Origin: Gemmobacter aquatilis
Lineage (GTDB): Bacteria > Pseudomonadota > Alphaproteobacteria > Rhodobacterales > Rhodobacteraceae
DNA: 64,000 bases
Direction of reading: 5' to 3'
Assembly: GCF_900110025.1 (NCBI RefSeq)
Contig: NZ_FOCE01000002.1
Span: 186,001 to 250,000, forward strand
Shown here one piece after another: positions 7,105-52,167 of the stretch; the first letter of the stretch is position 1; each line of letters opens with the position of its first letter. The notes below the pieces were generated by a model. The model ran no database searches, was not told the origin of the DNA, and was given only the letters and a program-made list of their open reading frames with translations. Both the position numbers and the translations under genes were made by a program.

Positions 7105-7158
7105 CACGCCCCCCATTTCACCCTGGCACAAATACTCTCGCCGAAGGCGCACATCCAA

Positions 7159-8310: not shown

Positions 8311-8409
8311 CACAGCCCCCTTAAAGTCGGCGCGACACTGGCCCGGCGGGGCGCGCGCGTCAAGGCGGGGCCCCGCTCTTGCGCGCCCGCCCCCCTGACG
8401 GAGACTTTG

Positions 8410-9162: not shown

Positions 9163-9168
9163 GCGGCC

Positions 9169-36133: not shown

Positions 36134-37468
36134 CTAAGCCACCTGCCGCCCCGACACCCAGACCCGCGCGATATTGGCGCGGCTGGTGCCGTAGAGGATA
36201 CGCTCCAGCAGCAGCGCGCCGCTTTGGCCGGGCCAGAGCCGCAGCGTGCCTTGCGGGGCTGTGGGGTCGATCAGCATGGCGTCGAACTGCAGGCCGGGGC
36301 GAAAGCTGCCCACCGGCAGTTCCAGCGCCGCGGCCCCGCCCGCAGTGGCAAGGTGGAACGCAGTCGCCATGTCGATCCGCGCGCCGGGATGGGCCGAGCG
36401 TTGGGCGGGCGGCAGATCGGGGTCCACGCCGCTTTCCAGCATCCGTGCTGCGGCCACCGCCATGCGCGCGGTTTCCCAGATCGTGCCCGCCGGGCCGCCC
36501 GAAATGTCGGACCCCAGCCCCACCCGCAGCCCCCGGTCCAGTGCCGCGCGCAGGGGAAATGCTGCACCTGCAAAATACGCATTCGACAGCGGACAATGCG
36601 CCACGCCGCTGCGATTGCTGCGCAGCAATTCCATGTCCGGGGGCGACAGGAAATTGCCATGCGCAAAGACCGAACCGGGGGTCATCAGCCCGAAATGATG
36701 CAGGGATTGCGCATCCGAACAGCCATGCCGCGCCTGCACATGACTGTGCTCCCAATCGCTTTCCGACACATGGCTTTGCACCCGGCAGCCGGTTTCCTGC
36801 GCCAGCGCGCCCAAGCCTCGCAACGCCGCGTCAGAGCAGGCCGGAATGAAGCGCGGCGTCACTACCGGCTGCACCAGCCCGTCATTGCCGGGCAGGCCCC
36901 GGATATGGTCGATCACCGCCCGCGTGCCCGCCACCGCCTCGGCAGCCGAGCCATCGCGGTAATAATCGGGGCAGGTCTCGGGGTGATCCATCGCCACCTT
37001 GCCGATCAACGCGCGCTGCCCGGCCTTCAGGCACAGATCGGCCAGCAGTTTTGTCGCCTCTACATGGACCGTTGCGAAATACAGCGCGGTCGTGGTGCCG
37101 CAGGCCAGCAGATCGGCCACCAGCAGGCGGTAAACCCGCTCGGCAAACCCCAGATCGGCATAGCGCGCCTCCAGCGGGAAGGTATGGCGGTGCAGCCAGT
37201 CTTCCAGCGGCACATCCAGCGCGCTGCCCAGTTGCGGATATTGCGGCGCGTGGACATGCAGATCGACAAAGCCGGGCAGCAGGATCTGGCCTTCAGGCAG
37301 ATGCAGCGCGTCGTTCGACACGCTGTAGCCATCGCTGCCCGGATGCCGCACCGCCGCAATCGTGCCATCGGCACCGATCTCGATCACTGCATCGCGGAAT
37401 TCCTCCACCCCGCCCCGCTCCGGCGCGTGAAAGCCCGAGGCGACGAGCGTCCGCCCGCGCAGGGTCAT
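36134..37468 (-). CDS. guaD: Guanine deaminase (amidohydrolase family)
   Basis: 444 residues. Converts guanine to xanthine. Metal site DLHVHAPQYPQLG matches the guanine-deaminase signature (H-x-H-A-P-Q-Y); also LEDWLHRHTFPLEARYAD, the QSHVSE His, AHGNFL, and the GSDISGG Asp. Last gene of a leftward operon that begins with the BMP binding protein; its start overlaps the stop of the Rieske-less oxygenase subunit (ATGA). The importer, deaminases and molybdenum hydroxylase together point to purine-type substrates. Confidence 0.85.
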   Translation of the reverse strand: MTLRGRTLVASGFHAPERGGVEEFRDAVIEIGADGTIAAVRHPGSDGYSVSNDALHLPEGQILLPGFVDLHVHAPQYPQLGSALDVPLEDWLHRHTFPLEARYADLGFAERVYRLLVADLLACGTTTALYFATVHVEATKLLADLCLKAGQRALIGKVAMDHPETCPDYYRDGSAAEAVAGTRAVIDHIRGLPGNDGLVQPVVTPRFIPACSDAALRGLGALAQETGCRVQSHVSESDWEHSHVQARHGCSDAQSLHHFGLMTPGSVFAHGNFLSPPDMELLRSNRSGVAHCPLSNAYFAGAAFPLRAALDRGLRVGLGSDISGGPAGTIWETARMAVAAARMLESGVDPDLPPAQRSAHPGARIDMATAFHLATAGGAAALELPVGSFRPGLQFDAMLIDPTAPQGTLRLWPGQSGALLLERILYGTSRANIARVWVSGRQVA

Positions 37469-38313
37469 GCGGCGTCCTGCGCGGTGCCCAATGTCGTGCC
37501 GTAGGTCAGCCCCTTTTCCTTCAGCCAGCGCCGATAGGCGATGGAGGAGGCGTCGGCCCGTGTCGGAATCTCGGCCCGGGGTTCCAGCGGCAGCAAGACG
37601 GGGCGCTGGTTTTCAAGGATGATGCGATCCTGCAGGAAGATCACCTGCTGGAAGCCGATCAGATCGGCGCTGCGCGCGGCATCGTCGATCAGAAACATCA
37701 CCGGATGCGCCCGGCACCGTCCGGGGTCGAGCGGTTGCACAAACAGGCAGATCACATCCCAGCGATCCGCCGCCATCGGGCAGGTTTTATACAGCAGCAC
37801 GGTAAAGGGCGTGGTGATGCGATAGATGTAATCGGTCTTGATCGCACCGCCCGCCGACAGCGCCGCTTTCGGCTGCACAAAGGTGCAGTTGGTGGCCCAG
37901 ACCTCATCCACATCGCGGCGGATTTCGCAATCGTAGTGTTCGACCTCGGTATGGGGTTCGGAACCCAGAATATCGGTATGCACAAAGGGAAAATGCGCCA
38001 TGTCGAGAAAGTTTTCCACAATCCGCAAGCCAGAGGCTTTCACCGCAATGGCGCCGCAGGGCACATAGCGGCGGTCGGGTTCGTCCGCCTCGGGGATCGG
38101 CGGCACCTCGGGCGGGGCCTCGCCCAGCGTGACCCACAGATAGCCATAGCGTTGCCGCGTGGGCAGCGCGCGCCCCTCGGCCATCACGGCGATGCCTTCG
38201 CCCCGCGTCACCGTCAGATCCACCCCCAGCAGGCGGTTGCGGCTTTCGCCCATGGGAATATCGGCCAGATTGTCGATGCAATACCACTGATCAAGAGCGG
38301 CTTTTTCGGCCAT
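37465..38313 (-). CDS. Rieske-oxygenase catalytic subunit lacking the [2Fe-2S] domain, paralogue A
   Basis: 282 residues. The C-terminal catalytic domain of a VanA/NdmA-type Rieske non-heme iron oxygenase is intact: ENFLDMAHFPFVH gives the bridging Asp104 and iron ligands His107 and His112, and the family end EIPTRADASSIAYRRWLKEKGL-type tail is present. The N-terminus keeps the outer Rieske-domain strands (DQWYCIDNLADI ... YGYLWVTLGEAP) but the cluster segment with C-x-H and C-x2-H is missing, so it cannot hold a [2Fe-2S] centre. It must receive electrons from another protein, most simply the stand-alone Rieske protein at 45010. Lies between 8-oxoguanine-deaminase-like and guaD genes. Closely related to the protein at 51316. 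Confidence 0.85.
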   Translation of the reverse strand: MAEKAALDQWYCIDNLADIPMGESRNRLLGVDLTVTRGEGIAVMAEGRALPTRQRYGYLWVTLGEAPPEVPPIPEADEPDRRYVPCGAIAVKASGLRIVENFLDMAHFPFVHTDILGSEPHTEVEHYDCEIRRDVDEVWATNCTFVQPKAALSAGGAIKTDYIYRITTPFTVLLYKTCPMAADRWDVICLFVQPLDPGRCRAHPVMFLIDDAARSADLIGFQQVIFLQDRIILENQRPVLLPLEPRAEIPTRADASSIAYRRWLKEKGLTYGTTLGTAQDAA

Positions 38314-38316
38314 CGG

Positions 38317-39723
38317 TCAGACCTCATAGATGCGGCGCACGGTGGCGCGATGATCGGCCAGGGCCTGCCCGATGTCGAGCCGGGTAAAGCCGCCCCCGTC
38401 CACCACCTGCACGCCGTTGATGAAGGAATGGTTCACCTTGAACGGGCCGCACATCACGAGGGCGGCCAGCGGGTCACGTTCGGTGCCCGCAAAGCCCAAC
38501 TGGTTCAGGTTCACCGCGATAATGTCTGCAGATTTGCCCGGCGCGATCTGGCCGATGTCCTCTCGCCCCAGCAGCTTTGCGCCGCCGCGTGTGGCCATCC
38601 ACAGCGCCTCGCGCGCCGACAAGGCGCCGGGCGTGCCGCCAAAACCGCCCCGCCCGCCGGGCTTGGCCGAAAGGTAACGGTCAGGCGCCACGCGTTGCAG
38701 AAACTGCGCCATGCGCACCTCTTGAAACATGTCCGACGTGTCGTTCGAGGCGGAACCGTCCACCCCCAGCCCCACCGTCACCCCCGCATCCAGCATTTCG
38801 CGCGCCCGCATGATGCCAAGACCGCAGCGCATATGCGCCGAGGGGCAGAAGGTTGCCCCCGTGCCGGTTTCGGCGAACAGCCGGATCTCACTGTCATCCA
38901 GAAAGATCGCATGGGCAAACCACACATCCGGCCCCAGCCAGCCCACGCTTTCGGCGAATCCGACCGAGCGCATCCCGTAGATCTGCTGGCAATAGGTTTC
39001 CTCATCCAGCACCTCCGCGATATGCGAATGCAGGCGCACGCCGTGGTGGCGCCGCGCCAGTGCGGCGGCATCTTTCATCAGTTGCGGGGTCACCGAAAAC
39101 GGCGAACAGGGCGCCAGCACGATGCGCGTCATCGCATGGTCGGCCATATCGTGATACCGCCCGATCAGCCGTTCGGCATCGGCCAGAATGGCGTCTTCCT
39201 CCTCCACACAGCTATCGGGCGGCAGCCCCCCTTTGCTTTCGCCGCGCGACATGGCGCCCCGCGCGGCGTGAAAGCGCAGGCCCATCTCGGCCGCGACCTC
39301 GATGGTGGTATCCAGCGTGCAATTGTTGGGCAGGATATACAGGTGATCGGAGGATGTGGTGCAGCCGGTGGCGATCAGTTCTGCCATCGCCATCTGCGCC
39401 GAAACCCGGATCGCCGCATCATCCAGCCGCGCCCAGATCGGGTAAAGCGTCTTCAACCAGACGAACAGCGGGTCATCCTGCACCATGACGCGGGTCAGGT
39501 TCTGATACATGTGATGGTGGGTGTTCACCATTCCGGGCATCACCACATGGTCGGTCAGATCCACAACCCGGTCGCCCTGCCCGGCCAGATCGCAGGCCTT
39601 GCCCACGGCAATGATGCGGTTGCCGTCAATCAGCACCGCGGCATCGGTCAATTCGCGCCCCGCCGGGCCGCCTGCATCGTCAAAAGTGGCCAGATGGGCG
39701 ATATTTGTCAGCAGGGTTTTCAT
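38317..39723 (-). CDS. 8-oxoguanine-deaminase-like amidohydrolase
   Basis: 468 residues. Zinc aminohydrolase: MPGMVNTHHHMYQNLTR carries H-x-H and matches the marker of the Pseudomonas PA0142 8-oxoguanine deaminase group; further metal/active positions RLHSHIAE, WFAHAIFL and GLGVDGSASND. Likely product: urate from 8-oxoguanine, but related enzymes act on other guanine- or isocytosine-like rings. The start overlaps the permease stop (ATGA). Open frame upstream of 39723 belongs to the permease in another frame. Confidence 0.82.
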   Translation of the reverse strand: MKTLLTNIAHLATFDDAGGPAGRELTDAAVLIDGNRIIAVGKACDLAGQGDRVVDLTDHVVMPGMVNTHHHMYQNLTRVMVQDDPLFVWLKTLYPIWARLDDAAIRVSAQMAMAELIATGCTTSSDHLYILPNNCTLDTTIEVAAEMGLRFHAARGAMSRGESKGGLPPDSCVEEEDAILADAERLIGRYHDMADHAMTRIVLAPCSPFSVTPQLMKDAAALARRHHGVRLHSHIAEVLDEETYCQQIYGMRSVGFAESVGWLGPDVWFAHAIFLDDSEIRLFAETGTGATFCPSAHMRCGLGIMRAREMLDAGVTVGLGVDGSASNDTSDMFQEVRMAQFLQRVAPDRYLSAKPGGRGGFGGTPGALSAREALWMATRGGAKLLGREDIGQIAPGKSADIIAVNLNQLGFAGTERDPLAALVMCGPFKVNHSFINGVQVVDGGGFTRLDIGQALADHRATVRRIYEV

Positions 39724-40655
39724 CGCATATCCCGGAAGAACGGCACCGACAGCGCGGCAGGCGCGGCCATCAGGCGGCGCATCCGCTGCACCGCCACCAC
39801 CGGCACGATGATCAGCGTGATGGTGCCAAGGTAAGGCAGCATCGACAGGATCGAGGCGGCGATGGGCCAGTTGCGCGCCTGCCCCACGAAGCCAAGCGCG
39901 GTGATGAAGCCGAACAGCAGCGCCGCCCCCGCCGCGTTGATCGGGCGGAAGCCTGCAAAGATCACCAGCGCCACCGCGATCCAGCCGCGCCCGGCCACCA
40001 CCCCTTCGGACCACGAGGGCACGAAGGCCAGCGTCAGATAGGCCCCCGACCCCGCCGCCATCGCCGCCCCGATCGCGGTATACCAGAAGCGGAACGCCAT
40101 CACATTGATCCCCGCCGCATCCGCCGCTGCCGGGTTTTCGCCCACTGCCCGCATGTTCAGCCCGTGACGGGTGCGGAACATCAGCCCGTGCAGGATCACC
40201 GGCAGGATGAAGAAGATCAGGTAGACCAGCACGTTATGGCTGAACAGCGCCCTGCCCAGAAACGGCAGGTCCGACAGGACCGGAATGTGGATCGGCCGGA
40301 AGGTCGCGGGGGCCGGCATCCCCGAATAGGCCTTGCCGATGGTCGCGGCCAGCCCGGTGCCGATCAGCGTCAGCGCCAGCCCGCACAGCACCTGATTGGC
40401 CCGCACCACCACGGTGGCCAGCGCGAAGGCCATGCCCACCACCAGCCCCACCGCCAGCGCCGCCGCAAATCCCAGCGCGGGGATCGGCACCGCCAGCACC
40501 GTGGCAATCGCCGTCACCGCCCCCAGCGCCATCAACCCCTCGACGCCCAGATTGACCACGCCCACCCGTTCGGCCAGCACCTCGCCCAGGGCCGCCAGCG
40601 CCAATACGCCCCCCGCCAGAAACGCCGTCTGGATCAGCCCCGCCAGAACATCCAT
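39720..40655 (-). CDS. Nucleoside/purine ABC permease 2 (YufQ/NupQ-like)
   Basis: 311 residues, about nine hydrophobic helices, BPD_transp_2 fold. Contains the GEN-x-x-A-A-D-A-A-G-I-N cytoplasmic loop (residues about 172-184) that contacts the ATPase. It pairs with the permease encoded 3 bases upstream. BMP-linked importers of this type carry nucleosides or purine bases into the cell. Confidence 0.87.
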   Translation of the reverse strand: MDVLAGLIQTAFLAGGVLALAALGEVLAERVGVVNLGVEGLMALGAVTAIATVLAVPIPALGFAAALAVGLVVGMAFALATVVVRANQVLCGLALTLIGTGLAATIGKAYSGMPAPATFRPIHIPVLSDLPFLGRALFSHNVLVYLIFFILPVILHGLMFRTRHGLNMRAVGENPAAADAAGINVMAFRFWYTAIGAAMAAGSGAYLTLAFVPSWSEGVVAGRGWIAVALVIFAGFRPINAAGAALLFGFITALGFVGQARNWPIAASILSMLPYLGTITLIIVPVVAVQRMRRLMAAPAALSVPFFRDMR

Positions 40656-40658
40656 CGC

Positions 40659-41708
40659 CTAGCCCTTTTCCTGTCTGCGGATCACCCGGTAATGCGCCAG
40701 CTCGTCACCAATGGCGGAAAACAGCAGGATCAGCCCGGTCACCGCCAACACCGTGTTGGTGGTCAGCCCCTGCGTCTGCAGAATGATCCCGCCGTTCAGG
40801 ATCACCGCCATCAGCAGCGCCGAAGCCAGCACGCCCAGGGGCGCCGCCCGCGCCAGCACGGCCACCATGATGCCCAGATACCCGTAATTGTTGGAAATCC
40901 CGCCCTGCAAGCGGCCCACGGTGCCCGCGACCTCCATCATGCCGCCTAGGCCCGCCAGCGCGCCCGACAGCAGCATGACGCCGATCAGATGCCGGGTGAC
41001 CGGGATGCCCGCATAACGCGCCGCGCCGGGGTTCGACCCCGAAATCCGCACCTCGTACCCCCAGCGGCTGAAGGCAAACACCACAGCCAGCAAAAGCGCC
41101 AGCGCCACCGCGACGGGAAAGCCCCAATGCACGATGCCCCAGAATTCGGGCACCGCCACCGGCAGCCGCGCCGTGGTGGCCAGCGCATGGCCCGACGGGT
41201 CCAGCCACGGCCCGGTCGCCACGAAATAGACCAGCAGCAAGGCCACGAAGTTCAGCAGCAAGGTGGTGATCAGCTCGCTGACATCGGCATAGGCCCGGGC
41301 CAGTGTCGGCACCAGAATCCACAACGCGCCACCCATGGCCCCCGCCACCATCATCAGCGGCAGCAGCAGCCAGACCGGGCCGGGCACGAACAGCGCCACC
41401 CCGGCAGCGCAAAAGGCGCCGATGTTGAACTGGCCCTCTGCGCCGATGTTCCACGCCCCGATGCGCAGCCCCACCGCCACCGCCAGCCCGGTATAGATCA
41501 GCGGCGTCAGCAGCAGGCCCAGATCCTCCAATCCGAAGCGCGACCCGAAGGTGGATCGCAGCACCTGCGCCGCAAGGTCCAGCGGTGCAAAGCCCGCCGC
41601 CGCCAGCACCGCCGCCGCCGTCAGCAGCGCCAGCACCAGCGCGGCCACCCGCGCGCCAAAGGCCATACCGGGCCGGGCCGAGGGCAGCCGTTGCAGATGC
41701 AGGTTCAT
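40659..41708 (-). CDS. Nucleoside/purine ABC permease 1 (YufP/NupP-like)
   Basis: 349 residues, about ten hydrophobic segments, BPD_transp_2 fold with the coupling loop ISGSNPGAARYAGI. The NIGAEGQFNIGA motif is typical of permeases that work with BMP-family binding proteins. Overlaps the ATPase stop by ATGA. Forms the membrane channel with the following permease. Confidence 0.88.
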   Translation of the reverse strand: MNLHLQRLPSARPGMAFGARVAALVLALLTAAAVLAAAGFAPLDLAAQVLRSTFGSRFGLEDLGLLLTPLIYTGLAVAVGLRIGAWNIGAEGQFNIGAFCAAGVALFVPGPVWLLLPLMMVAGAMGGALWILVPTLARAYADVSELITTLLLNFVALLLVYFVATGPWLDPSGHALATTARLPVAVPEFWGIVHWGFPVAVALALLLAVVFAFSRWGYEVRISGSNPGAARYAGIPVTRHLIGVMLLSGALAGLGGMMEVAGTVGRLQGGISNNYGYLGIMVAVLARAAPLGVLASALLMAVILNGGIILQTQGLTTNTVLAVTGLILLFSAIGDELAHYRVIRRQEKG

Positions 41709-43294
41709 GCCGCCGCCCCGTTCTGACTATCGCCGTTCTGGCTGTTCCGGCTCTGGCCGCCCATCATCAACCCGATCTCGTCCAGATCGGCCTCGGCCCC
41801 TTCCACCACGCCCATGATGCGGCCATGGAACAGCACGGCGATCCGGTCTGACAGGTTCAGCAATTCCTCAAGCTCCTCCGACACCAGCACCACCGCCACG
41901 CCCTGATCGCGCAATTCGGTGAAATAGCGCATCATCGTGTTGATCGCGCCAACATCGAGCCCGCGCGACGGATAGGCCGCCACCAGCACCTTGCGGGCGA
42001 TGCGCATCTCGCGCCGCGCCACCAGCCGCTGCTGATTGCCGCCCGACAGGTTGCGCACCGGCATGGCGAAATCGGGCACCGCCACCTCGGCCACGCCCGC
42101 GATCTGCTGAGCCAGCGCTAGGGCGGCGCGCGGCAGGAACCACGGCCCGCGCGACACCGGCGGCGCGCGATATTCGCGCAGCACCGCGTTGTCGGTGATC
42201 GACAAGGCCGGCGCCACGCCCGAGGCCAGACGATCCTCCGGGATATGCCCGACGCCGACCGCAGCCACCTTGCCCGGCCCGGCGGTGGAAAGATCCACCC
42301 CCTCCAGCAGCACCCGGCCTTCGGTCGGGCGCGCAAGGCCGGTCATCACCTGGCACAGCTCGCGCTGGCCATTGCCCGCCACCCCCGCCACGCCCAGAAT
42401 CTCGCCCGCCCGCACCTCAAGCGTGATGCCGGTCAACAGCCCCTTCAGCCCCACGCCTTCCAGCCGCAGCACTGGCGCGCCCGGCCCGGCCACGCCATCG
42501 GGGCGCCCGCGCAGATCGCTCAGCACAATATCGCGGCCCACCATCAACTGCGCCAGCGACCGTTCGGTGCAATCTTCGGCCCATTCGGTGGCGACCTTGC
42601 GCCCCTGCCGCAGAATGGTGATGCGGCCCGCGATCTCCAGCACCTCGTCCAGCTTGTGGCTGATGAAGATCACCGCATTGCCCTGCGCCACAAAACCGCG
42701 CAGCGCCACGAACAGCTCCTGCGCCTCGGCCGGGGTCAGCACGGCGGTCGGTTCATCAAGGATCAGCACGCGAGCCTGCCGCGACAGCACGCGCAGGATT
42801 TCCACCCGCTGCTGCTCGCCGGTGGACAGATCGGCGACCACCGCGCCGGGCTTCACCGCAAGGTTCAGCGTCGCGGCCAGCGCTGCCGTGCGCGCCTCCA
42901 GATCCGCCGCGGAAATCCGGGCCGGGGTGTCGCCCCAGCCCAGATGCACGTTTTCGGCGACGGTGAAGGCCTGCACCAGCTTGAAATGCTGGTGCACCAT
43001 GCCGATACCCGCCGCGATGGCATCCTGTGGCGCGGCAAAGCTTTGCGCATAGCCGCCCACCAGAATCTCGCCCGAATCCGGCTGGTAGATGCCGGTCAGC
43101 ACATTCATCAGCGTCGACTTTCCGGCGCCATTCTCGCCCAGCAGGGCGTGGATTTCGCCGGGGAGCACCTCGAAATCCACATCCGCATTGGCGATGACCC
43201 CGGGGAAGATCTTGCCGATCCCGCGCAGCGCCACCAAGGGCGGCGTGCCCGGCTCCAGCCCCAGCCGCTGGCGGATATCGGCCTCGTCGCGCAT
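41705..43294 (-). CDS. Nucleoside/purine ABC ATP-binding protein, two ABC domains (YufO/NupO-like)
   Basis: About 529 residues with two ATP-binding cassettes. First: GENGAGKST, signature DLSTGEQQRVEIL, Walker B LILDEPTAVL. Second: degenerate Walker A GVAGNGQREL, signature NLSGGNQQRLVARRE. This pattern is normal for importers of the RbsA/YufO group. I prefer the ATG at 43294, four bases after the upstream gene; an ATG at 43345 would overlap that gene by 47 bases. Confidence 0.87.
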   Translation of the reverse strand: MRDEADIRQRLGLEPGTPPLVALRGIGKIFPGVIANADVDFEVLPGEIHALLGENGAGKSTLMNVLTGIYQPDSGEILVGGYAQSFAAPQDAIAAGIGMVHQHFKLVQAFTVAENVHLGWGDTPARISAADLEARTAALAATLNLAVKPGAVVADLSTGEQQRVEILRVLSRQARVLILDEPTAVLTPAEAQELFVALRGFVAQGNAVIFISHKLDEVLEIAGRITILRQGRKVATEWAEDCTERSLAQLMVGRDIVLSDLRGRPDGVAGPGAPVLRLEGVGLKGLLTGITLEVRAGEILGVAGVAGNGQRELCQVMTGLARPTEGRVLLEGVDLSTAGPGKVAAVGVGHIPEDRLASGVAPALSITDNAVLREYRAPPVSRGPWFLPRAALALAQQIAGVAEVAVPDFAMPVRNLSGGNQQRLVARREMRIARKVLVAAYPSRGLDVGAINTMMRYFTELRDQGVAVVLVSEELEELLNLSDRIAVLFHGRIMGVVEGAEADLDEIGLMMGGQSRNSQNGDSQNGAAA

Positions 43295-43298
43295 CGGC

Positions 43299-44420: not shown

Positions 44421-44743
44421 CGGGAATACCTCGCTGTCATCGGGCCTCTTTTGGCGGGCCCATCGGTGGGGATCTGCCGCGCGGCTCTGTCGGGCGCTTT
44501 GCAGGTGCAGCAACCAGCGTTCCAAATGCCGTGCGTTCTGAATAGGCGGTATTATTCGACCTAGATGTTGCGTTTTACGCAACACTTGACGCGGGGCCGC
44601 CGCTGCGCGCTTACTGGATTCCGCTGCGGGTGCAGCATTGCCGGAGTGTGCGGCAACTGCCCACGCAGCAAGGATTTTCCGGGGAAGACTCGGCGCAGCA
44701 CAGCGTAGATTTTCCCGCTCAGGTAGAAGGCGGCGCAGAACGG
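44421..44743. promoter_or_regulatory. Divergent promoter region of the split-Rieske regulon
   Basis: 323 bases between the leftward importer operon and the rightward small-protein/Rieske operon. I see no further gene with confidence. The central part (44540-44620) is AT-richer than its surroundings and contains the palindrome at 44566-44584. A TTGACG at 44586 just right of it could be a rightward -35 element. Leftward, TAAT-like sequences follow the palindrome. Confidence 0.6.
44566..44584. promoter_or_regulatory. LysR-type operator, perfect 7-bp palindrome
   Basis: TGTTGCG-N5-CGCAACA; the inner part TGC-N7-GCA gives the classic T-N11-A LysR box. It abuts the putative rightward -35 and overlaps the leftward promoter area. 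A second copy with one mismatch lies at 47215-47233. The regulator encoded at 46286 is the obvious candidate. Confidence 0.75.
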
Positions 44744-45013
44744 ATGGATGAAACGGTGATCCTTGGCTTTACCGGGCGGATCGGGATGGCAAGTTTCGAG
44801 GAATTCGCCCGCCACCGCGCCGCCCGTCTTGCGCTGGGGCTTACGGTGCTTGGCCTTGCCGCCCACGCCGCGCGCTTTGCCGTCAGCGGCCCGCCCGACC
44901 TGATCGACGCTTTTGAAATGGCGCTCAGCCTCGGCCCCAGCGATTGCCTGGTGCTGGAGGTGACGCGCGCGACCAACGGGCCAGACGCCCGGCAGACAGG
45001 GATTGCAGGATGA
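44744..45013 (+). CDS. Small acylphosphatase-fold-like protein, catalytic Arg replaced
   Basis: 89 residues from the ATG at 44744 (a GTG at 44630 is an alternative). The order beta strand (ETVILGFTGRI), loop, helix (EEFARHRAARLALGL), strands, then VSGPPDLIDAFEMALSLGP helix and final strand follows acylphosphatases in length and pattern. The active-site loop Q-G-V-G-F-R is replaced by GMASFE, so the catalytic Arg is Glu and hydrolysis is unlikely. The link to acylphosphatase is my inference and needs a profile search. First gene of the operon with the Rieske and GST-like proteins (ATGA overlap with the Rieske gene), so perhaps an accessory or assembly protein. Confidence 0.5.
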   Translation: MDETVILGFTGRIGMASFEEFARHRAARLALGLTVLGLAAHAARFAVSGPPDLIDAFEMALSLGPSDCLVLEVTRATNGPDARQTGIAG

Positions 45014-45657
45014 CGGAAGACGCATGGGTTCCGCTGGCACTGTCCAGCATGATCGAGGTGGGCACGTCGGCGGGCGCCGTGGTGCAGGGGCAGGAAATCG
45101 TGGTCTGGCGCGACAGTTCGGGCGTGGCGCACACCTGGGAAGACCGTTGCCCGCATCGCGGCATGAAGATGAGCTTCGGCTTCGTGCGCGGCGATCACAT
45201 CGCCTGCCTCTATCACGGCTGGGAATATGATCAGGCCGGGCAATGCCGCTACATCCCGGCCCATCCGCAACTGGAAGTGCCGAAAACCATCTGCGTGAAA
45301 ACCTGGGCCGTGGCCGAGGCGGCGGGAATGATCTGGGTCGCCCTGGGCGCGGTGCCACCCCCCCCGGCAGAGGCCGAGGTGACGGCGCTGCGCAGCCTCT
45401 ATCTGGATGCGCCGCTGGCTGCGGTGCTGGCCGCCCTGCCCGAAGGATTTGGCGGCACGCTTGCCGGGCAGGTGCCGCTGGTCACGCTGGACACCGATCT
45501 TGGCACCCTGCGCATCGGCGTGCAGCCCATCGACGCCCGCCGCACCGCGCTGCACCTGACCGTTGCGGGGCCCGCAACACCCGACACGCTGCTGGCGCTG
45601 GCCACCCGCAGCGATGCCTTCCGCCTGAGCCTTGAGACTGCCGGAGCCGCAGCATGA
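45010..45657 (+). CDS. Stand-alone Rieske [2Fe-2S] protein with unknown C-terminal extension
   Basis: 215 residues. The Rieske domain (about 5-118) has C47-P-H49 and C66-L-Y-H69 with 16 residues between, the Rieske-oxygenase form: DRCPHRGMKMSFG ... CLYHGWEYDQAGQC. No catalytic iron motif and no reductase domain follow; residues about 119-215 are unlike either. It resembles the Rieske part of NdmA/NdmD-type proteins. It probably carries electrons to the cluster-less catalytic subunits at 37465 and 51316. Starts inside the stop of the preceding gene (ATGA) and overlaps the GST-like gene the same way. Confidence 0.87.
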   Translation: MTEDAWVPLALSSMIEVGTSAGAVVQGQEIVVWRDSSGVAHTWEDRCPHRGMKMSFGFVRGDHIACLYHGWEYDQAGQCRYIPAHPQLEVPKTICVKTWAVAEAAGMIWVALGAVPPPPAEAEVTALRSLYLDAPLAAVLAALPEGFGGTLAGQVPLVTLDTDLGTLRIGVQPIDARRTALHLTVAGPATPDTLLALATRSDAFRLSLETAGAAA

Positions 45658-46286
45658 CCGCGCCGATCCTGTATAACTACGACCTCGACGAAAACTGCTA
45701 CCGCGTGCGGCTGGTGGCCTCGTGCCTTGGGGTGGCGCTGACGCTGCACGGGATCGACATGTATCCCGGGCGCGAACATCTGGGCGCAGCGATGCGCGCG
45801 CTGAACCCGGCAGGCCGCCTGCCGGTGCTGCAAGACGGCGATCTGCTGCTGACCCAGACCGAAGCGATCCTGATGCATCTGGCCGAAGCCCACGCCCCCA
45901 CCACCCCGCTTTTGCCGCAGGATGCCGCAACCCGCGCGCGGATGATGGATTGGCTGGCCTTCTGCGCCCGCGATCTGGGCGTGGCGGCACAGGCCCGCAC
46001 CTGCGCCATGCTGGATGCGCCGGGCGATGCGCAGGCGCTGCGTGCAAGCGCCCGCGCCTGCCTGCGGTTGATGGAGGATCACATGGTCAAACAGGGCATC
46101 CGGGGCTGCGGCTTCTTTGCCGGGCCAGCCGCCACGCTGGCCGATCTGGCACTGTTCCCCGCCTTTGCCCTGTCGCGCGATTTCAACGTGGATCATGACG
46201 AATTCCCCGCCCTGCGGCTTTGGGCGCGGCGGGTGCGGCGGCTGCCGGGCTTCATCACCATGCCCGGCATCCCGGATTACCACTGA
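45654..46286 (+). CDS. Glutathione-S-transferase-like protein (possible NdmE-type complex partner)
   Basis: 210 residues: N-terminal thioredoxin-like domain (ILYNYDLDENCYRVRL to about 80; conserved cis-Pro in GRLPVL and TEAILMHLAE for the gamma-glutamyl site) and C-terminal helical GST domain (about 90-205). Glutathione-dependent chemistry such as a maleylacetoacetate isomerase is possible. In the caffeine pathway the GST homologue NdmE holds the Rieske-less NdmC and NdmD together, and the position here, directly after the Rieske gene, suggests the same structural role. That role is inference. Confidence 0.8.
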   Translation: MTAPILYNYDLDENCYRVRLVASCLGVALTLHGIDMYPGREHLGAAMRALNPAGRLPVLQDGDLLLTQTEAILMHLAEAHAPTTPLLPQDAATRARMMDWLAFCARDLGVAAQARTCAMLDAPGDAQALRASARACLRLMEDHMVKQGIRGCGFFAGPAATLADLALFPAFALSRDFNVDHDEFPALRLWARRVRRLPGFITMPGIPDYH

Positions 46287-47209
46287 TGGATCTGCACCGC
46301 CTCGGCCTCGTCTCCAGCCGGGTTCACAACTTTCTGCTGGTGGCCCGGCTCGGCTCGATCCGCGCCGCCGCCAAGGCGCTGAACGTCGCACCCTCGTCGA
46401 TCAGCCGCACCATCAAGCAGTTGGAGGAAGACCTGGCCGCACCGCTGTTCGAGCGCACGCAACAGCGGCTGAAGCTCACCTCGGCGGGCGAACTGCTGTA
46501 TTACCACATCCGCCAGAGCACCGGCGAACTGAACCGCGCCATCACCGAAATCACCGATCTGCAAGGGCTGCGCCGGGGCACGGTGACCATTGCCACGGTG
46601 GAAAGTGCGGCGCGCGGCTTCCTGTCCGATGTGCTGGCCGGGTTCTGGGTGCGCCACCCGGAAATCACCGTCGATGTGCATGTGGGCGGCTCGGCCGATG
46701 TGGCCGGGCTGGTGGCGCAGGGCGAGGCGGATCTGGGCGTGGTCTTCGACCTGCGCCCGCCCAAGAACACCCGCCGCATCGCCTCGGTCGCCATGCCGAT
46801 GGGGGTGATGGTCGCGCCGGGCAGCCGCCTTGCGCTGAAGGGCGACAGCCTGCGCGTCTATGATCTGGCGGGGGAGCGGGTGATCCTGTCGGACGCCAGC
46901 CTCACGCTCGGCTCCACCATCGAAGACGCGCTGTCGGGGTCGTTCGTGGAATTTTCGCGCCGGGCGCGCACCAATTCCATCGGTGTGATGATTGATCTGG
47001 CGACCAAGGGGCTGGGCACCATCCTGCAAACCCGCATCGGCGTGGAACGCGAAGTGGCGCGCGGCGATCTGGTGTTCATCCCGCTGGTGGACCCGCGCCT
47101 GCAACCGCGCCGCCTGCATCTGCTGTCCCGCCCCAAGGCCGAGATTTCCGAGGCGGCATCGGCGCTTGCCGCCATGCTGGCCACCGCGATGGAACGTCTG
47201 GCACCCTGA
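46286..47209 (+). CDS. LysR-family regulator of the split-Rieske regulon
   Basis: 307 residues. Winged HTH at about 10-65 (FLLVARLGSIRAAAKALNVAPSSISRTIKQLEEDL) and an effector domain (about 95-295). Its start overlaps the GST-like stop (TGATG), so it is part of the operon and probably autoregulated. Palindromes of the T-N11-A kind in front of the divergent operons and right after this gene are likely its binding sites. The inducer is presumably a pathway substrate or intermediate. Confidence 0.9.
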   Translation: MDLHRLGLVSSRVHNFLLVARLGSIRAAAKALNVAPSSISRTIKQLEEDLAAPLFERTQQRLKLTSAGELLYYHIRQSTGELNRAITEITDLQGLRRGTVTIATVESAARGFLSDVLAGFWVRHPEITVDVHVGGSADVAGLVAQGEADLGVVFDLRPPKNTRRIASVAMPMGVMVAPGSRLALKGDSLRVYDLAGERVILSDASLTLGSTIEDALSGSFVEFSRRARTNSIGVMIDLATKGLGTILQTRIGVEREVARGDLVFIPLVDPRLQPRRLHLLSRPKAEISEAASALAAMLATAMERLAP

Positions 47210-47214
47210 CCCGG

Positions 47215-47233
47215 TGTTGCGCAAGGCACAACA
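47215..47233. promoter_or_regulatory. LysR-type operator, second copy, before the ThDP decarboxylase genes
   Basis: TGTTGCG-N5-CACAACA: left half identical to the box at 44566, right half with one change (CACAACA for CGCAACA), same 5-base spacer. It lies in the 106-base gap between the LysR gene and the ThDP genes, the only real gap in the rightward set. Confidence 0.65.
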
Positions 47234-47315
47234 ACTGCATCGACATTCAACACCTATGCACAACATCCCCCCTTTGCCATCTTTGACCGCAACGCGACCA
47301 GACAGGGCAGGACAG

Positions 47316-47816
47316 ATGAAACAAAGCGCCGTCGATGCGGTGATCCGCGGGTTGAAGAAGGCAGGGGTCAGCATCGTCTGCTACCTGCCCGATTCGCTGT
47401 TCAAGGAACTTTATCCCGCGCTGGATGCCGATCCCGACATCCGCACCATCCGCGTGACGAACGAGGGCGAAGGGGCGGCGATCTGCGGCGGGGTGTTCCT
47501 GTCGGGCAAGCGCGCGGCGCTGGTGATGGAAAACTCCGGCCTGCGCGCCAGCGTCGAACCCTTGGCCCGCATGGGCCTTGGCGCGGGCATCCCGGTGGTG
47601 ATGCTGATGAGCTATCGCGGCGAATTGGGCGAAAACAACTGGTGGGCCATTCCCCACGGCATCACCATGGAACCCATCCTCGATGCCCTTCGCATCCCCT
47701 ACCGCGTGGTGCGCGAGGAGGACGCGATCGAGCAATCCATCATCGACGCCTATAACTGGAGCTACAACGCCTATTACCACTCGGCCATCGCCCTGGGCGG
47801 GAGTGTCGTGCGATGA
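47316..47816 (+). CDS. ThDP-dependent decarboxylase, N-terminal (PYR-domain) subunit
   Basis: 166 residues forming the pyrimidine-binding half of a split thiamine-diphosphate enzyme, like the alpha subunit of sulfopyruvate (ComD) or phosphonopyruvate decarboxylase. The catalytic Glu is seen in VTNEGEGAAICGGVFLSGK. Acts as a heteromer with the next gene's product. Substrate unknown; a 2-oxo acid from ring or side-chain breakdown is a reasonable guess. Confidence 0.85.
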   Translation: MKQSAVDAVIRGLKKAGVSIVCYLPDSLFKELYPALDADPDIRTIRVTNEGEGAAICGGVFLSGKRAALVMENSGLRASVEPLARMGLGAGIPVVMLMSYRGELGENNWWAIPHGITMEPILDALRIPYRVVREEDAIEQSIIDAYNWSYNAYYHSAIALGGSVVR

Positions 47817-48421
47817 AACGCTATGATTGCATGACCCGCCTCGCCGCCCGGCTGCGCGATGAACTGGTGATCCTGTCGCTGGGGGCCTCGGTCGATGAAT
47901 GGTATAATGCCGCGCCGCATATGCGGGCGGCCAGCCTGTTCCAGCAGCAACTGGGTTGCGTGACGCCGCAGGCCTTCGGGCTGGCCGCAGGCTTGCCGCA
48001 CCGGCGGATCATCTCGTTGGATACCGACGGGGGGATGATGTTCAACCTCGGGATTCTGGCCACCTTAGGCAATGAACAGCCCAAGAACCTGTTCACCGTG
48101 GTCTGGGATAACGAATGTTATCAATCCATCGGCGGCCCGCCCACCCATACCGCCTTTGGCCGGGTGGATATTGCCGCCATCGCGCGCGGTGCCGGGATAG
48201 ACCACGCCTATACCGCCCGCACGCTGGAGGAGTTTGACGCGCATTGCGCCGCCGGGCTGGCGGCCGAGGTGCCCTATCTCGTTGTGGCCAAGGTGGCCGG
48301 CACCGTGCAGCCCGACATCCGCCGCAAACATTCCGACGGGCGTGAGGACAAATACATCTTCGTCCGCCATGTCGAGGCGACGGAGGGTATCGTGATCATG
48401 GGCCCATCGGAACATAACTGA
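47813..48421 (+). CDS. ThDP-dependent decarboxylase, C-terminal (PP-domain) subunit
   Basis: 202 residues with the ThDP/Mg2+ motif: SLDTDGGMMFNLGILATL followed by VVWDNECYQS, i.e. the GDG-type Asp and the later Asn-Glu pair. Like the ComE subunit of sulfopyruvate decarboxylase. Overlaps the partner gene by 4 bases (ATGA). Residues 148-190 include PYLVVAKVAGT, the usual C-terminal strand. Confidence 0.86.
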   Translation: MKRYDCMTRLAARLRDELVILSLGASVDEWYNAAPHMRAASLFQQQLGCVTPQAFGLAAGLPHRRIISLDTDGGMMFNLGILATLGNEQPKNLFTVVWDNECYQSIGGPPTHTAFGRVDIAAIARGAGIDHAYTARTLEEFDAHCAAGLAAEVPYLVVAKVAGTVQPDIRRKHSDGREDKYIFVRHVEATEGIVIMGPSEHN

Positions 48422-48434
48422 GGCGGGGCCGGGC

Positions 48435-49946
48435 ATGGACAGCTTCGATTTCATCGTGATCGGGTCCGGCTCGGGGGGCGCTGCCGTCGCGCGGCGCCTG
48501 TCCGACGCCGGGGCCGAGGTCGCGGTGGTCGAAGCCGGGGCCGACCCGGCGGGCGATCCGCGCATCGCCGATCCGGCGCAATGGTTCGGGCTGCAACAGG
48601 GGGACTGGGATTGGGGCCACAGCTACCGCCCGTCCGACCGGCTGCTGGGCCGCGCCGTGCCGATCCCGCGCGGGCGGGCGCTGGGGGGATCTTCGGCCAC
48701 CAATGCGATGATGTGGTATCGCGGCACCCCCGCCGATTATGCCCGCTGGGACGCCGTGGCGCCCGGCTGGGGCTGGGAGGATTGCCTGCCCGCCTTCCGC
48801 GCCTGCGAGGATTGGGCGGGCGGCGCCACCCCGCTGCGCGGTGCAGGCGGGCCGCTGAAGATCAGCCGCGCCGCATGGGGCCATCCGCTGACCCGCGCGA
48901 TGATCCAGGGCGGCATTTCCATGGGCCTGCCGCTGGTGTCAGACCCCAACGGGCCCGCGCCGGAATGTGTCGGTCTGGCCAATTTCAACATCGCAGACGG
49001 GCGGCGCTGGACCTCGGCCGACGGCTATCTGCGGGGCGCGGCGCTGACGCTGCTGACCGAAACCCGCGCGCTGGAGCTGCTGTTCACCGGCGACCGCGCA
49101 ACCGGGCTGCGCGTGGCCCATGCCGGGGCCGAACGCGGCCTCACCGCCCGCAAGGGCCTGATCCTGGCCGCCGGTGCGCTGGAAACCCCACGCCTGTTGA
49201 TGCTGTCGGGCATCGGGCCCGAAGCGGAGCTGGCCCGCCTTGGCCTGTCCTGCCGCCTGCGCGCCGAAGGCGTGGGCCAGAACCTGCAAGACCACCCTTT
49301 GCTGCGCGCGCTGAACTTCCGCGCCCGCCACCCGCTTGGCCCGGTGGTGGGCAATGGCGGCGGCACGCTGACCATCTGGAAATCCGACCCCGCGCTGCCT
49401 CAGGCCGATCTGCTGGCCTTCCCGATTCAGGGCCGATCCGCCGTGCCAACGCTGGCCGATCACTATGACCTGAGCGGCGATCTGTTTGCCATCGGTCTGG
49501 GGGTGATGCGGTCCCATTCCCGCGGCTGGCTGCGGCTGACCGGCCCCGGCCCCGATGCCCCGCTGGAGATCGAGCCGAACCTGCTGGCCGATCCGCGCGA
49601 TCTGGCGGCGCTGCTGCGCGGGGTCGAATTCCTGCAAGCCATGGCGCTGACCCCCGCCTTCGCCGATCTGTTCGCCGGTTTTGCCGCCCCCGACGCGCGA
49701 CTGGACCGCGCGGGCCTTGAGACCTTCGTGCGCCGCGCCTGCTCCACCTTCTTTCACTGCTGCGGCACGGCGCGGATGGGCGCCGATGCCGATGCGGTCT
49801 GCTCGCCCCGGCTGGCGGTGAACGGGGCACACGGGCTCTGGATCGCCGACGCCTCGGTCATCCCCGAAATCCCGGCCTGTCACACCCACGCCCCCGTCAC
49901 CATGATCGGCGAACGCGCCGCGACGTTCATTCTGGAGGACGCATGA
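48435..49946 (+). CDS. GMC-family FAD-dependent alcohol/choline oxidoreductase
   Basis: 503 residues. FAD motif FIVIGSGSGGAAVARRL; GMC signature 1 GRALGGSSATNAMMWYRG; signature 2 GALETPRLLMLSGIG; active-site region FFHCCGTARMG (His as base) and the C-terminal HAPVTMIGERAA with FAD contacts. Oxidises an alcohol to aldehyde, which could feed the aldehyde dehydrogenase at 55780. Start behind GAGGCGGGG. Overlaps the next amidohydrolase gene (ATGA). Confidence 0.9.
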   Translation: MDSFDFIVIGSGSGGAAVARRLSDAGAEVAVVEAGADPAGDPRIADPAQWFGLQQGDWDWGHSYRPSDRLLGRAVPIPRGRALGGSSATNAMMWYRGTPADYARWDAVAPGWGWEDCLPAFRACEDWAGGATPLRGAGGPLKISRAAWGHPLTRAMIQGGISMGLPLVSDPNGPAPECVGLANFNIADGRRWTSADGYLRGAALTLLTETRALELLFTGDRATGLRVAHAGAERGLTARKGLILAAGALETPRLLMLSGIGPEAELARLGLSCRLRAEGVGQNLQDHPLLRALNFRARHPLGPVVGNGGGTLTIWKSDPALPQADLLAFPIQGRSAVPTLADHYDLSGDLFAIGLGVMRSHSRGWLRLTGPGPDAPLEIEPNLLADPRDLAALLRGVEFLQAMALTPAFADLFAGFAAPDARLDRAGLETFVRRACSTFFHCCGTARMGADADAVCSPRLAVNGAHGLWIADASVIPEIPACHTHAPVTMIGERAATFILEDA

Positions 49947-51319
49947 CACCTGATCTGATCCTGACCGCCGATGCCGTGGTGACCATGGATGCCACGCTGA
50001 CAGTGATCCCGCAGGGCGCCGTGGCGCTCACCGGCGGCACCATCGCCGCCGTCGGCCCCGCCGCCGATCTGCTGGCCGCCCATCCCGGCGTGAAGGTCAA
50101 GGCGATGGGCCGCGCCGTGCTGATGCCCGGCCTGATCAATGCGCACGCCCATTCCGGTTTCCTGCGCGGCACCGCCGAACATCTGCCGGTCTGGGATTGG
50201 CTGACGCAGCACATCAACCCCATGCACCGGATGCTGCGCGCCGAAGAGGCCGAGGCAGCCAGTTACCTCTGCTATGCCGAAAGCCTGCTGTCGGGCACCA
50301 CCACCGTGGTGGACATGTGGCGCTTCATGGAAGGCTCTGCCCGCGCGGCCGAGGTGCTGGGCAACCGGCTGGTCGCCGTGCCCTATGTCGGCGAACATCC
50401 GGATTACGATTATTTCGACCGGCTCGACATGAACGAGGCGCTGATTGACGCGTGGAACGGCGGCGCATGCGGGCGCGTCTCGGTCTGGGTCGGGCTGGAA
50501 CACCTGTTCTACGCCGACGAGGCCGGGCAGGCCCGTGCCATCGACATGGCCAAGAAATACAATGTGCCCTTCCACACCCATTGCTCCGAAGCCGAGATCG
50601 AGGTGGCGGAATTCCTCACCCGCTATGGCAAGAAACCCATGCAGGTCTTTGCCGATATTGGGTTTTTCGAAACGCCGCTGACCATGTTCGCCCATGCCGT
50701 CTGGCTGGATCCCGAAGAGGTGGCGCTGATCGCCCGCCACCGCGTCTCGGTCGCGCATAACCCGGTGTCGAACATGAAACTCGCCTCAGGCATCGCCCCG
50801 GTGGCCGAGATGCTGGCGCTGGGCGTGCCTGTCGGCCTTGGCACCGATGGCGAGAAGGAAAACAACAATTTCGACATGTTCGAGGAAATGAAGGCCGCCA
50901 GCCTGCTGGGCAAGCTGCGCCACCGCGACGCCGCGGCGATGGACAGTTGGACCTGCCTGCGCATGGCCACCAGCCTTGGGGCTGCGGCCATCGGGCAGGC
51001 CGACCGCATTGGCAGCCTGGAGCCCGGCAAGCGCGCCGACATCATCGCCGTCCGGGCAGACACGCCACGCCTCACGCCGTTCTTTGCCGAAGGGCCGTGG
51101 TTCAACCTGCAACACAACCTTGTTCACGCCGTGCGCGGGTCCGACGTGGCGATGACCATGGTCGATGGGCAGATCGTGGTCGAGGACGGCAAGCTGAAAA
51201 CCGGCGACATGGCCGAAATCATCGACCGCATCCACCGGCTGGCACCGGGCCATTTCACCCGCCGCGCCGACTGGCTAGCGGCCAATGGCGGCGGCACCAA
51301 GCAATGGACGGACCAATGA
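49943..51319 (+). CDS. Amidohydrolase-family deaminase (AtzA/TrzN/8-oxoguanine deaminase-like)
   Basis: 458 residues of the metal-dependent aminohydrolase fold: LINAHAHSGFLRG (H-x-H), HTHCSEAEIEVAEF, FAHAVWLD, and LGTDGEKENN (metal Asp). The group includes deaminases and dechlorinases of purine- and triazine-like rings. It differs from the deaminase at 38317, so the locus has three amidohydrolases. Its neighbour on the right is Rieske-less subunit B, just as the other 8-oxoguanine-deaminase-like gene adjoins subunit A. Confidence 0.83.
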   Translation: MTPDLILTADAVVTMDATLTVIPQGAVALTGGTIAAVGPAADLLAAHPGVKVKAMGRAVLMPGLINAHAHSGFLRGTAEHLPVWDWLTQHINPMHRMLRAEEAEAASYLCYAESLLSGTTTVVDMWRFMEGSARAAEVLGNRLVAVPYVGEHPDYDYFDRLDMNEALIDAWNGGACGRVSVWVGLEHLFYADEAGQARAIDMAKKYNVPFHTHCSEAEIEVAEFLTRYGKKPMQVFADIGFFETPLTMFAHAVWLDPEEVALIARHRVSVAHNPVSNMKLASGIAPVAEMLALGVPVGLGTDGEKENNNFDMFEEMKAASLLGKLRHRDAAAMDSWTCLRMATSLGAAAIGQADRIGSLEPGKRADIIAVRADTPRLTPFFAEGPWFNLQHNLVHAVRGSDVAMTMVDGQIVVEDGKLKTGDMAEIIDRIHRLAPGHFTRRADWLAANGGGTKQWTDQ

Positions 51320-52167
51320 AGACCACCGATCCCGTCGCGCTGAACCAGTGGTATGCCGTGGCCACGCTGGCCGATCTGGGCGCCACGCCGATCCGCACCC
51401 GGCTGCTGGGACAAGAGATCGAGATCACGCGTGGGCCACATGGCCCCGAGGTGCGCGAGGCGGGCAACCCCGCCCCCCTGCCGGTGCGCGAGAAATTCCT
51501 CTGCCTGTGGACAAGCCTCGGCACGCCCGAGGCCGAGATCTTCGACATCGCCGAAAGCCATGACCCCACCCGCCGCGTGGTGCCCTGTGGCTGGGTGACG
51601 ATGCGCGCCAGCGGGCTGCGCGTGGTGGAAAACTTTCTCGACATGGCGCATTTCCCCTTTGTCCATACCGACATCCTCGGCTCCGAACCCCATACCGAGG
51701 TGCCGCAGTATACCTCGGAAATCCGCCGCGACGTGGATGAGGTCTGGGCGACCAACTGCCGCTTCTTTCAGCCGCAAATGACCGCCAGCCGCCCGGAAGG
51801 CGAGTTTGCGCAACTGATCTACCGCGTGCCACAACCCTTCGTTGTGATGCTGTATCGTCAGGTGCCCGACACGCTCGGGCTGCAGGATGCCATCGCCCTG
51901 TTCATCCACCCGCTGGAGCAAGACCTCTGCCGCGCGCAGCCGGTGATGTGGCTGACCGACCAGACCGCCAGCCACACCGCGCTGCTGCGCTTTGAACAGG
52001 TGATCTTCCTGCAGGATCGCATCATCGTGGAAAACCAGCGCCCGCTGCTGTTGCCGCTGGAGCCGCGGTCGGAAATCCCGACGCGGGCCGACAGTTCCTC
52101 GGTCGCCTATCGGCGCTGGCTGAAGGAAAAGGGCCTGCGCTTTGGCACCACGGCGGGGGCGGCGTGA
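51316..52167 (+). CDS. Rieske-oxygenase catalytic subunit lacking the [2Fe-2S] domain, paralogue B
   Basis: 283 residues. Catalytic domain with VVENFLDMAHFPFVHTD: bridging Asp109 and iron ligands His112 and His117. The stretch through ILGSEPHTEV and IRRDVDEVWATNC is nearly the same as in paralogue A, as is the C-terminal EIPTRADSSSVAYRRWLKEKGL-type tail. The N-terminus again keeps WYAVATLADLG ... FLCLWTSLGTPE but has no cluster cysteines or histidines. It overlaps both neighbours (ATGA with the deaminase, TGATG with the molybdenum hydroxylase). Probably partners with the Rieske protein at 45010. Confidence 0.85.
   Translation: MKTTDPVALNQWYAVATLADLGATPIRTRLLGQEIEITRGPHGPEVREAGNPAPLPVREKFLCLWTSLGTPEAEIFDIAESHDPTRRVVPCGWVTMRASGLRVVENFLDMAHFPFVHTDILGSEPHTEVPQYTSEIRRDVDEVWATNCRFFQPQMTASRPEGEFAQLIYRVPQPFVVMLYRQVPDTLGLQDAIALFIHPLEQDLCRAQPVMWLTDQTASHTALLRFEQVIFLQDRIIVENQRPLLLPLEPRSEIPTRADSSSVAYRRWLKEKGLRFGTTAGAA

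Follow-up and report, generated by a model that had tools for sequence, protein, structure and literature searches.

Most Rieske oxygenases keep specificity and electron delivery together in a single chain, whereas a Rieske unit shared between catalytic subunits would let one ask what docking needs. A 64,000-nt stretch of the Gemmobacter aquatilis genome (contig NZ_FOCE01000002.1, positions 186,001 to 250,000; hereafter the window, in whose own numbering its features are given) raises the question of whether such a unit exists. It encodes one free-standing Rieske protein, one glutathione S-transferase (GST)-family protein and two catalytic subunits, here called catA and catB, that lack the Rieske cluster. 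We consider it probable that these proteins make up a split Rieske oxygenase assisted by a GST, the one Rieske protein and the one NdmE-type GST serving both catA and catB.

The two halves of a Rieske oxygenase lie on separate proteins

The first-pass annotation of this DNA named three open reading frames (ORFs), and all three are present: the Rieske protein (45010-45657, 215 residues) and catB (51316-52167) on the plus strand, and catA (37465-38313) on the minus strand, a point on which that annotation was silent. CatA belongs to the same 282/283-residue class as catB, and the two are 58% identical. The parts list of a Rieske protein and two catalytic subunits therefore stands, but it overlooked the NdmE-like GST-family protein encoded at 45654-46286 (plus strand, 4-bp overlap with the Rieske gene), although the NdmCDE precedent discussed below needs one.

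The proposed division of motifs agrees with both profile searches and alignments. The Rieske model was found only in the 45010 product, whose sole Pfam match is PF00355 (residues 6-89), and VanA_C only in catA and catB (2.9e-23 and 4.4e-14), in neither of which any Rieske model matched. When the window's Rieske protein was aligned with 44 of 51 non-redundant Rieske proteins, the cluster ligands C47, H49, C66 and H69 were invariant in 45 of 45, and the protein has no catalytic iron site. Conversely, both window catalytic subunits, aligned with 46 of 47 others (one 536-residue read-through ORF was left out), have an intact non-heme iron motif without cluster ligands: none of the 48 varies at H112, H117, D234 or the bridging-type D109. 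The first three of these residues align with residues 164, 169 and 280 of GxtA, described as the iron ligands of SxtT/GxtA (PMC7293229).

An AlphaFold2 model of catB (pLDDT 86.9) matched SxtT/GxtA chains at ranks 1-24, with structural similarity scores (TMq) of 0.80-0.86; the alignments span 329-335 columns and the chains 311-329 residues. Over their first 71 columns, the catalytic subunits match a Rieske-domain profile (90.7% probability in hhalign, E 1.5e-7; the reversed control gave 0.1%), and the cluster-binding middle of this Rieske-like N-terminal stretch is missing. Profile and predicted structure thus indicate that the catalytic protein retains a cluster-less Rieske remnant.

The Rieske protein is free-standing, as had been claimed, but it is not merely a Rieske domain. 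It has a second domain of ~95 residues (124-214), folded in a model of pLDDT 95.2 as strand, helix, four strands and long helix. This model also matched SxtT/GxtA at ranks 1-24 (TMq 0.71-0.75), and since the Rieske domain accounts for only ~118 of the 215 residues, a TMq above 0.55 cannot come from that domain alone. The match points to the second domain being a catalytic domain that has shrunk. NdmD-type proteins have a region of similar length after their Rieske domain, which aligns weakly to the C-terminal domain of the window protein.

Rieske protein, catalytic subunit and GST form a conserved set

We examined two evenly drawn samples, chosen against cherry-picking, of 390 genomes from the order and 397 from the phylum. 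Split catalytic subunits were found in 24 and 20 of these, respectively, 6 of them common to both, which leaves 38 distinct genomes. Eight further phylum-sample genomes were counted as having full-length oxygenases only, six of them confirmed from the locus sequence and two (G624 and G800) assigned by the position of the match and the length of the frame. In all 38 genomes the locus of the catalytic subunit also contains a Rieske unit and a GST, and the association is therefore not due to chance. Both were also present in 77 of the best 80 relative loci, the catalytic subunit standing alone in L045, L049 and the contig-cut L059. This linkage argues that Rieske protein, catalytic subunit and GST are a conserved three-part enzyme. 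The reductase takes the form of an NdmD-type fusion in 7 of the 38 genomes and of a separate local gene in 3; none was found in the stretch examined in the other 28.

The layout of the set varies. Plasmid pRt932 of Rhizobium tumorigenes is annotated with the two-operon layout of the window, minus the 8-oxoguanine deaminase, and simpler cassettes (Rieske protein, catalytic subunit, GST, amidohydrolase, BMP transporter) occur in Rhizobium and Qingshengfaniella. The Paracoccus alcaliphilus cassette has a VanB-type reductase in addition, and in Sinorhizobium meliloti and on a Klebsiella plasmid the Rieske unit is fused to the reductase, as in NdmD. The S. meliloti AK57 annotation of pSymA splits the NdmD-type gene into two overlapping genes, Rieske and VanB-type (L102, 9919-11686), where strain M162 has one. 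A Variovorax paradoxus plasmid (L103, 8313-10806) carries a free Rieske protein, a GST and a 604-residue fusion of catalytic subunit and VanB-type reductase, the reverse of the NdmD fusion. 'Aromatic ring-hydroxylating dioxygenase' is the sole name given to such genes in many rhizobial plasmid records.

The same data bear on a rival explanation, namely that an ordinary full-length oxygenase elsewhere uses the Rieske protein as its soluble ferredoxin and that the catalytic subunits are inactive or otherwise supplied. Rieske ferredoxins exist, and the genome has five other matches to the Rieske protein; these are at most 35% identical to it and lend no support to a full-length oxygenase as the real partner, a possibility raised in the first-pass annotation. 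Linkage to catalytic subunits and GST in 38 of 38 genomes speaks against a ferredoxin, as do the best matches of the Rieske protein, which are oxygenase Rieske domains and not ferredoxins, and the NdmD-type relatives, which fuse the same Rieske family to a reductase beside NdmC-type catalytic subunits. In a Rieske tree built on few columns, moreover, one branch (98/94) parts the split Rieske proteins from the sampled full-length oxygenases; 25 of the 27 rows labelled as A- or B-type (after catA and catB) group with the window, together with three otherwise labelled rows (99/89). With linkage, predicted fold and tree all telling against it, we regard a simple ferredoxin as highly improbable.

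One Rieske protein accompanies two catalytic subunits

A single carrier serving two interchangeable catalytic subunits had been proposed for this locus, and the genome counts favor the sharing. The window's whole genome has two catalytic subunits, one split-type Rieske protein and one GST. Two catalytic subunits per Rieske unit were found in 8 of the 38 genomes, of which five have the A+B pair and three have tandem catalytic subunits with an NdmD-type fusion; one further genome has two complete sets around one reductase. This layout is seen at L172 (7131-12627, genome G328), where two complete Rieske-catalytic subunit-GST sets flank the reductase gene and the second set is very divergent. Hand-picked sets were also searched, 14 genomes for catalytic-subunit content and 10, the window's included, for Rieske and GST counts. 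In each of the ten the search gave a single split-type Rieske protein (E no higher than 1e-25) and a single strong GST, with a second, weaker GST in one genome; seven of the ten have two catalytic subunits. 'Interchangeable', on the other hand, is not borne out, as catA and catB are diverged paralogues with different neighbors and probably different substrates.

Two genomes separate the parts. Kaistia dalseonensis (G811) and Mesorhizobium sp. BR1-1-16 (G812) each carry a catB with 69% identity to the window's, on a different contig from the A-type catalytic subunit and from the only split-type Rieske protein and GST of the genome, and neither a Rieske protein nor a GST was found within 10 kb on either side of it. 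If active, these catB proteins would need to draw on the Rieske protein in trans or rely on an altogether different arrangement. Sharing of the Rieske/GST pair in trans is the simplest reading of this arrangement. The separation can also be taken to mean that Rieske protein and GST serve catA only, with catB fed by another protein such as a ferredoxin or the Rieske domain of a full-length oxygenase, and the genomes with only an A-type subunit (G157, G244 and Neorhizobium galegae, G810), which keep Rieske protein and GST in that locus, fit such a restriction. Genomes with only a B-type subunit (G802 and G803; Rhodococcus sp. CH91 and one metagenome-assembled genome) do not, since split Rieske protein and GST lie in the catB locus of each. 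In the window, too, the Rieske and GST genes head the genes on the catB strand, and the single split-type Rieske protein in 10 of 10 genomes examined leaves catB no second one. We therefore think it distinctly unlikely that catB is served by a different protein, and favor the shared pair.

The substrates are probably modified guanines

Gene neighborhoods indicate that the cluster's role is probably the breakdown of chemically modified purine bases, and that the substrates are probably modified guanines. On the minus strand, catA overlaps by 4 bp a gene for a guanine deaminase-like amidohydrolase (36134-37468; at 368.0 bits it narrowly misses the NCBIfam threshold, 375.4) and is separated by 3 bp from one for an 8-oxoguanine deaminase (38317-39723, scanned as 38317-39720 with the start set by eye; 590.3 bits against a cut-off of 532). 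In Pseudomonas putida CBB5, NdmC with NdmD and NdmE is described as removing the N7-methyl group of 7-methylxanthine to give xanthine (PMC4408171). By analogy, N7-demethylation of methylguanine would be the most likely reaction of catA, an assignment that we make tentatively.

The main chemical rival is purine ring hydroxylation. The same split enzyme might act like HpxD, for example by making 8-oxoguanine from guanine; the linked deaminase would then yield urate. The closeness of the 8-oxoguanine deaminase gene to catA fits this chemistry, and catB has two distant relatives annotated as HpxD (29.8 and 30.1% identity). However, the NdmC precedent is an N7-demethylation, the A-type loci L014, L153 and L155 show no such deaminase in the stretch examined, and the one-cat cassette is linked to an N2,N2-dimethylguanine hydrolase-type enzyme in 17 of 38 genomes. 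On balance hydroxylation seems to us possible but rather doubtful.

That hydrolase, NdmH, was described in a 2026 paper naming eleven active-site residues (W85, W93, Y98, Y133, N165, C213, Q214, N217, E243, H275 and D326; PMC13054789). In 20 of 20 PCQP-motif amidohydrolases (17 from the samples and 3 from plasmids) all eleven recur with unchanged spacing, the numbering being anchored on the PCQP motif of these relatives and not on the poNdmH sequence itself. The NdmH-type gene lies beside the catalytic subunit in one group of one-cat cassettes. A search of both samples with a cassette member as query and a cut-off of 1e-100 gave 11 and 8 genomes, 2 of them common, and in each of the resulting 17 the gene adjoins a split catalytic subunit; with such a query and so strict a cut-off, the linkage is shown for a subfamily and not for every NdmH. 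It gives the split catalytic genes a testable physiological role. The words 'Rieske', 'operon' and 'transporter' are absent from the main text of the NdmH paper (PMC13054789). The window has guanine- and 8-oxoguanine-deaminase-like genes in place of the NdmH type, and its 8-oxoguanine deaminase-like protein was rejected as an NdmH, as it reads APCSPFS where NdmH-type proteins read APCQPVN. Dimethylamine is the expected release product of NdmH-type enzymes; the window's genome, which has no NdmH-type match, carries dimethylamine monooxygenase-like genes, recognized by eye, on another contig, C17 (L120, ~5954-9830).

The two-subunit layout probably arose more than once

In a careful tree of catalytic subunits, from which the long-branched L172_Pred_11800 was omitted, the 56 split subunits form one group against six full-length rows (100/100). 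A-type (99/96) and B-type (100/99) subunits each group, and the two join at 94/71. S. meliloti has two tandem catalytic subunits, which the tree places apart (100/97 and 100/98); no group smaller than one of 55 of the 56 split rows (81/81) contains both. The A+B and tandem pairs are thus distinct paralogue pairs, and the two-subunit layout probably arose at least twice. As to the halves themselves, the catalytic subunit is probably an oxygenase chain whose cluster-binding loops were lost, and the Rieske protein looks like its reciprocal, a chain whose catalytic domain shrank. An apparent in-frame TGA in five full-length relatives was dismissed, as the alignments reach the natural stop where inspected.

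A proposed mechanism and the evidence against it

From the observed gene inventory, motifs, linkage, genomes pairing a single Rieske protein with two catalytic subunits, trees and predicted folds, we infer a physical complex, an electron path and a chemistry. A reductase encoded elsewhere would supply electrons to the Rieske protein, which would dock across the subunit interface like the Rieske domains of ordinary alpha3 oxygenases; electrons would then reach the catA or catB iron via the conserved Asp109. The GST may hold the complex together, the role proposed for NdmE. Imported purine-like bases would be the substrates. CatA would most likely take an N-methyl group (N7, on the NdmC precedent) off a methylguanine, before or after guanine deaminase, and catB might handle a related compound in a branch with the amidohydrolase and the xanthine-dehydrogenase-like enzyme.

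Several observations weigh against this proposal. The window has no reductase gene, all seven NAD_binding_1 matches of the genome lying outside it. The cut-off behind the whole-genome Rieske counts (E 1e-25) leaves out full-length oxygenases, one of which is possibly an electron donor. The C-terminal domain of the Rieske protein matched catalytic-domain profiles at hhalign 0.0%, negative in two tests, so that the shrunken catalytic domain is a reading of predicted structure. An orphan A-type subunit on plasmid pRA01 of Roseicitreum antarcticum (L019, 11971-12837), annotated as '(2Fe-2S)-binding protein', has neither a Rieske protein nor a GST, by annotation or by match, within 12 kb. No NdmH-type amidohydrolase was matched at E 1e-100 in the window's genome, nor in the rest of the 21 sampled genomes outside the 17, and the methylguanine link is thus carried over from relatives. 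The neighbors of catB indicate no single substrate. Finally, independent origin of the tandem and A+B pairs assumes that there was no hidden old duplication with losses.

As to the electron supply, the genome's closest match to the P. alcaliphilus reductase (37% identity) is the VanB-type reductase on contig C17, in what looks by eye like a dimethylamine monooxygenase cluster; we rejected it as a dedicated partner because it adjoins those genes. SxtT and GxtA were assayed with the reductase VanB (PMC7293229), so an unlinked reductase is workable, and by analogy an unlinked general reductase is a plausible donor.

A broader synthesis can be drawn, although as a whole we think it somewhat unlikely. 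Rieske protein and GST would be a general hub delivering electrons to catalytic subunits duplicated at least two independent times, and the halves would stem from complementary decay of two whole oxygenases, not from one gene cut in two. The system would supply a missing route for RNA-derived N-methylated guanines, with catA taking 7-methylguanine (from cap and rRNA) to guanine and the NdmH-bearing cassettes taking 2,2,7-trimethylguanine (from the small nuclear RNA cap) to N2,N2-dimethylguanine for NdmH.

Neighboring genes and the intergenic palindrome

The remaining genes on the catA strand encode an ABC transporter (39720-43345), comprising a permease identified with Pfam (39720-40655), and a second permease (40659-41708) and an ATPase (41705-43345) identified by eye and from the annotated order in L014. 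Beside them on this strand lies a gene for a BMP/PnrA-family substrate-binding protein (43299-44585 as ORF limits; by eye, the true start is probably lower). On the plus strand, a small acylphosphatase-like ORF (44744-45013, scanned as 44747-45013; Pfam match below cut-off) precedes the Rieske gene. Similar ORFs recur before the Rieske gene or elsewhere in several cassettes (L015-L018), again mostly below the Pfam cut-off. Downstream of the GST are a LysR-family regulator (46286-47209, scanned as 46280-47209 with the start by eye), a two-subunit thiamine pyrophosphate-dependent decarboxylase-like pair (47247-48421) and a GMC-family oxidoreductase (48435-49946). A TRZ/ATZ-type amidohydrolase gene (49943-51319) overlaps catB by 4 bp, and the other end of catB is overlapped by a xanthine-dehydrogenase-like molybdoenzyme (52164-55780; NCBIfam scores below cut-offs) with fused FAD and Mo subunits (52164-55319) and a 2Fe-2S subunit (55316-55780). 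Elsewhere in the window, two long minus-strand ORFs (19951-22389 and 29949-32372) look by eye like dimethylglycine/sarcosine dehydrogenases.

The operons are divergent, as had been described, catA being on the minus strand and the Rieske gene and catB on the plus strand. They were also said to meet at one palindromic operator. The palindrome, TGTTGCGT-TTT-ACGCAACA (44566-44584), is real, with perfect 8-nt arms and a 3-nt spacer, but its reading as a possible operator is statistically weak, since 29 of 200 shuffles of the region equal it. GTTGC...GCAAC is the best palindrome only in L020, L023 and L075, among the matches listed (60 of 70 relatives' regions).

Relation to known systems

In the literature searched, with most subscription journals outside its scope, we found no report of one Rieske unit common to two catalytic subunits, of a link between split oxygenases and NdmH, of reciprocal decay of oxygenase halves or of a 7-methylguanine demethylase, and no support for a cytokinin lead. 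A Rieske/GST unit serving two catalytic subunits could offer an off-the-shelf modular platform. The NdmCDE complex is described as structurally unsolved (PMC13237722), and the free 215-residue Rieske protein offers a smaller way in to an NdmCDE-type structure.

SxtT and GxtA are the closest solved structures to both halves, and their iron ligands align with those of catA and catB, but in them a single chain bears both metal sites. The VanA_C-type match is shared by NdmA, NdmB and other VanA-type demethylases, and NdmA and NdmB are described as purine N-demethylases; all of these differ in being full-length chains with their own Rieske cluster, and no need for a GST is described for them. Six full-length oxygenases from the same phylum (L220-L225) are the next-best matches after the split subunits in the phylum sample, and BMP-type transporter genes occur in 6 of 6 of their stretches, as they do near the window's catalytic subunits. 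However, Rieske and catalytic parts lie in one ORF, and no split partner or GST was matched in these 10-kb stretches. These may be unsplit purine oxygenases. Guanine-deaminase-like genes lie nearby in L222, L223 and L225.

The nearest system is NdmCDE, the split N7-demethylase of the caffeine pathway. NdmC is described as lacking the cluster, NdmD as carrying an extra Rieske cluster and NdmE as required, with mention of homologous clusters in a further 18 organisms (PMC4408171). A tight complex of the three proteins is a further mark of this system. The first-pass annotation named the caffeine pathway as the best-known exception to one-chain oxygenases; a split Rieske oxygenase with a GST is already known in print as NdmCDE. 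Like NdmCDE as described, the window has a cluster-less catalytic subunit, a Rieske cluster on another protein and a GST-like third component; the comparison rests on the published description and on relatives, not on P. putida sequences, and relatives with an NdmD-like fusion (S. meliloti and the Klebsiella plasmid) match the window's catalytic, Rieske and GST profiles. The window set thus appears to be an unfused relative of NdmCDE. In contrast to NdmCDE, its Rieske protein is a free 215-residue ORF lacking the fused VanB-type reductase, no reductase gene is linked, there are two catalytic subunits per Rieske protein, and the neighbors are guanine-type deaminases and a BMP transporter instead of ndmA and ndmB. 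As the NdmD-type reductase fusion is absent, the window system is a variant of this enzyme, not NdmCDE itself.

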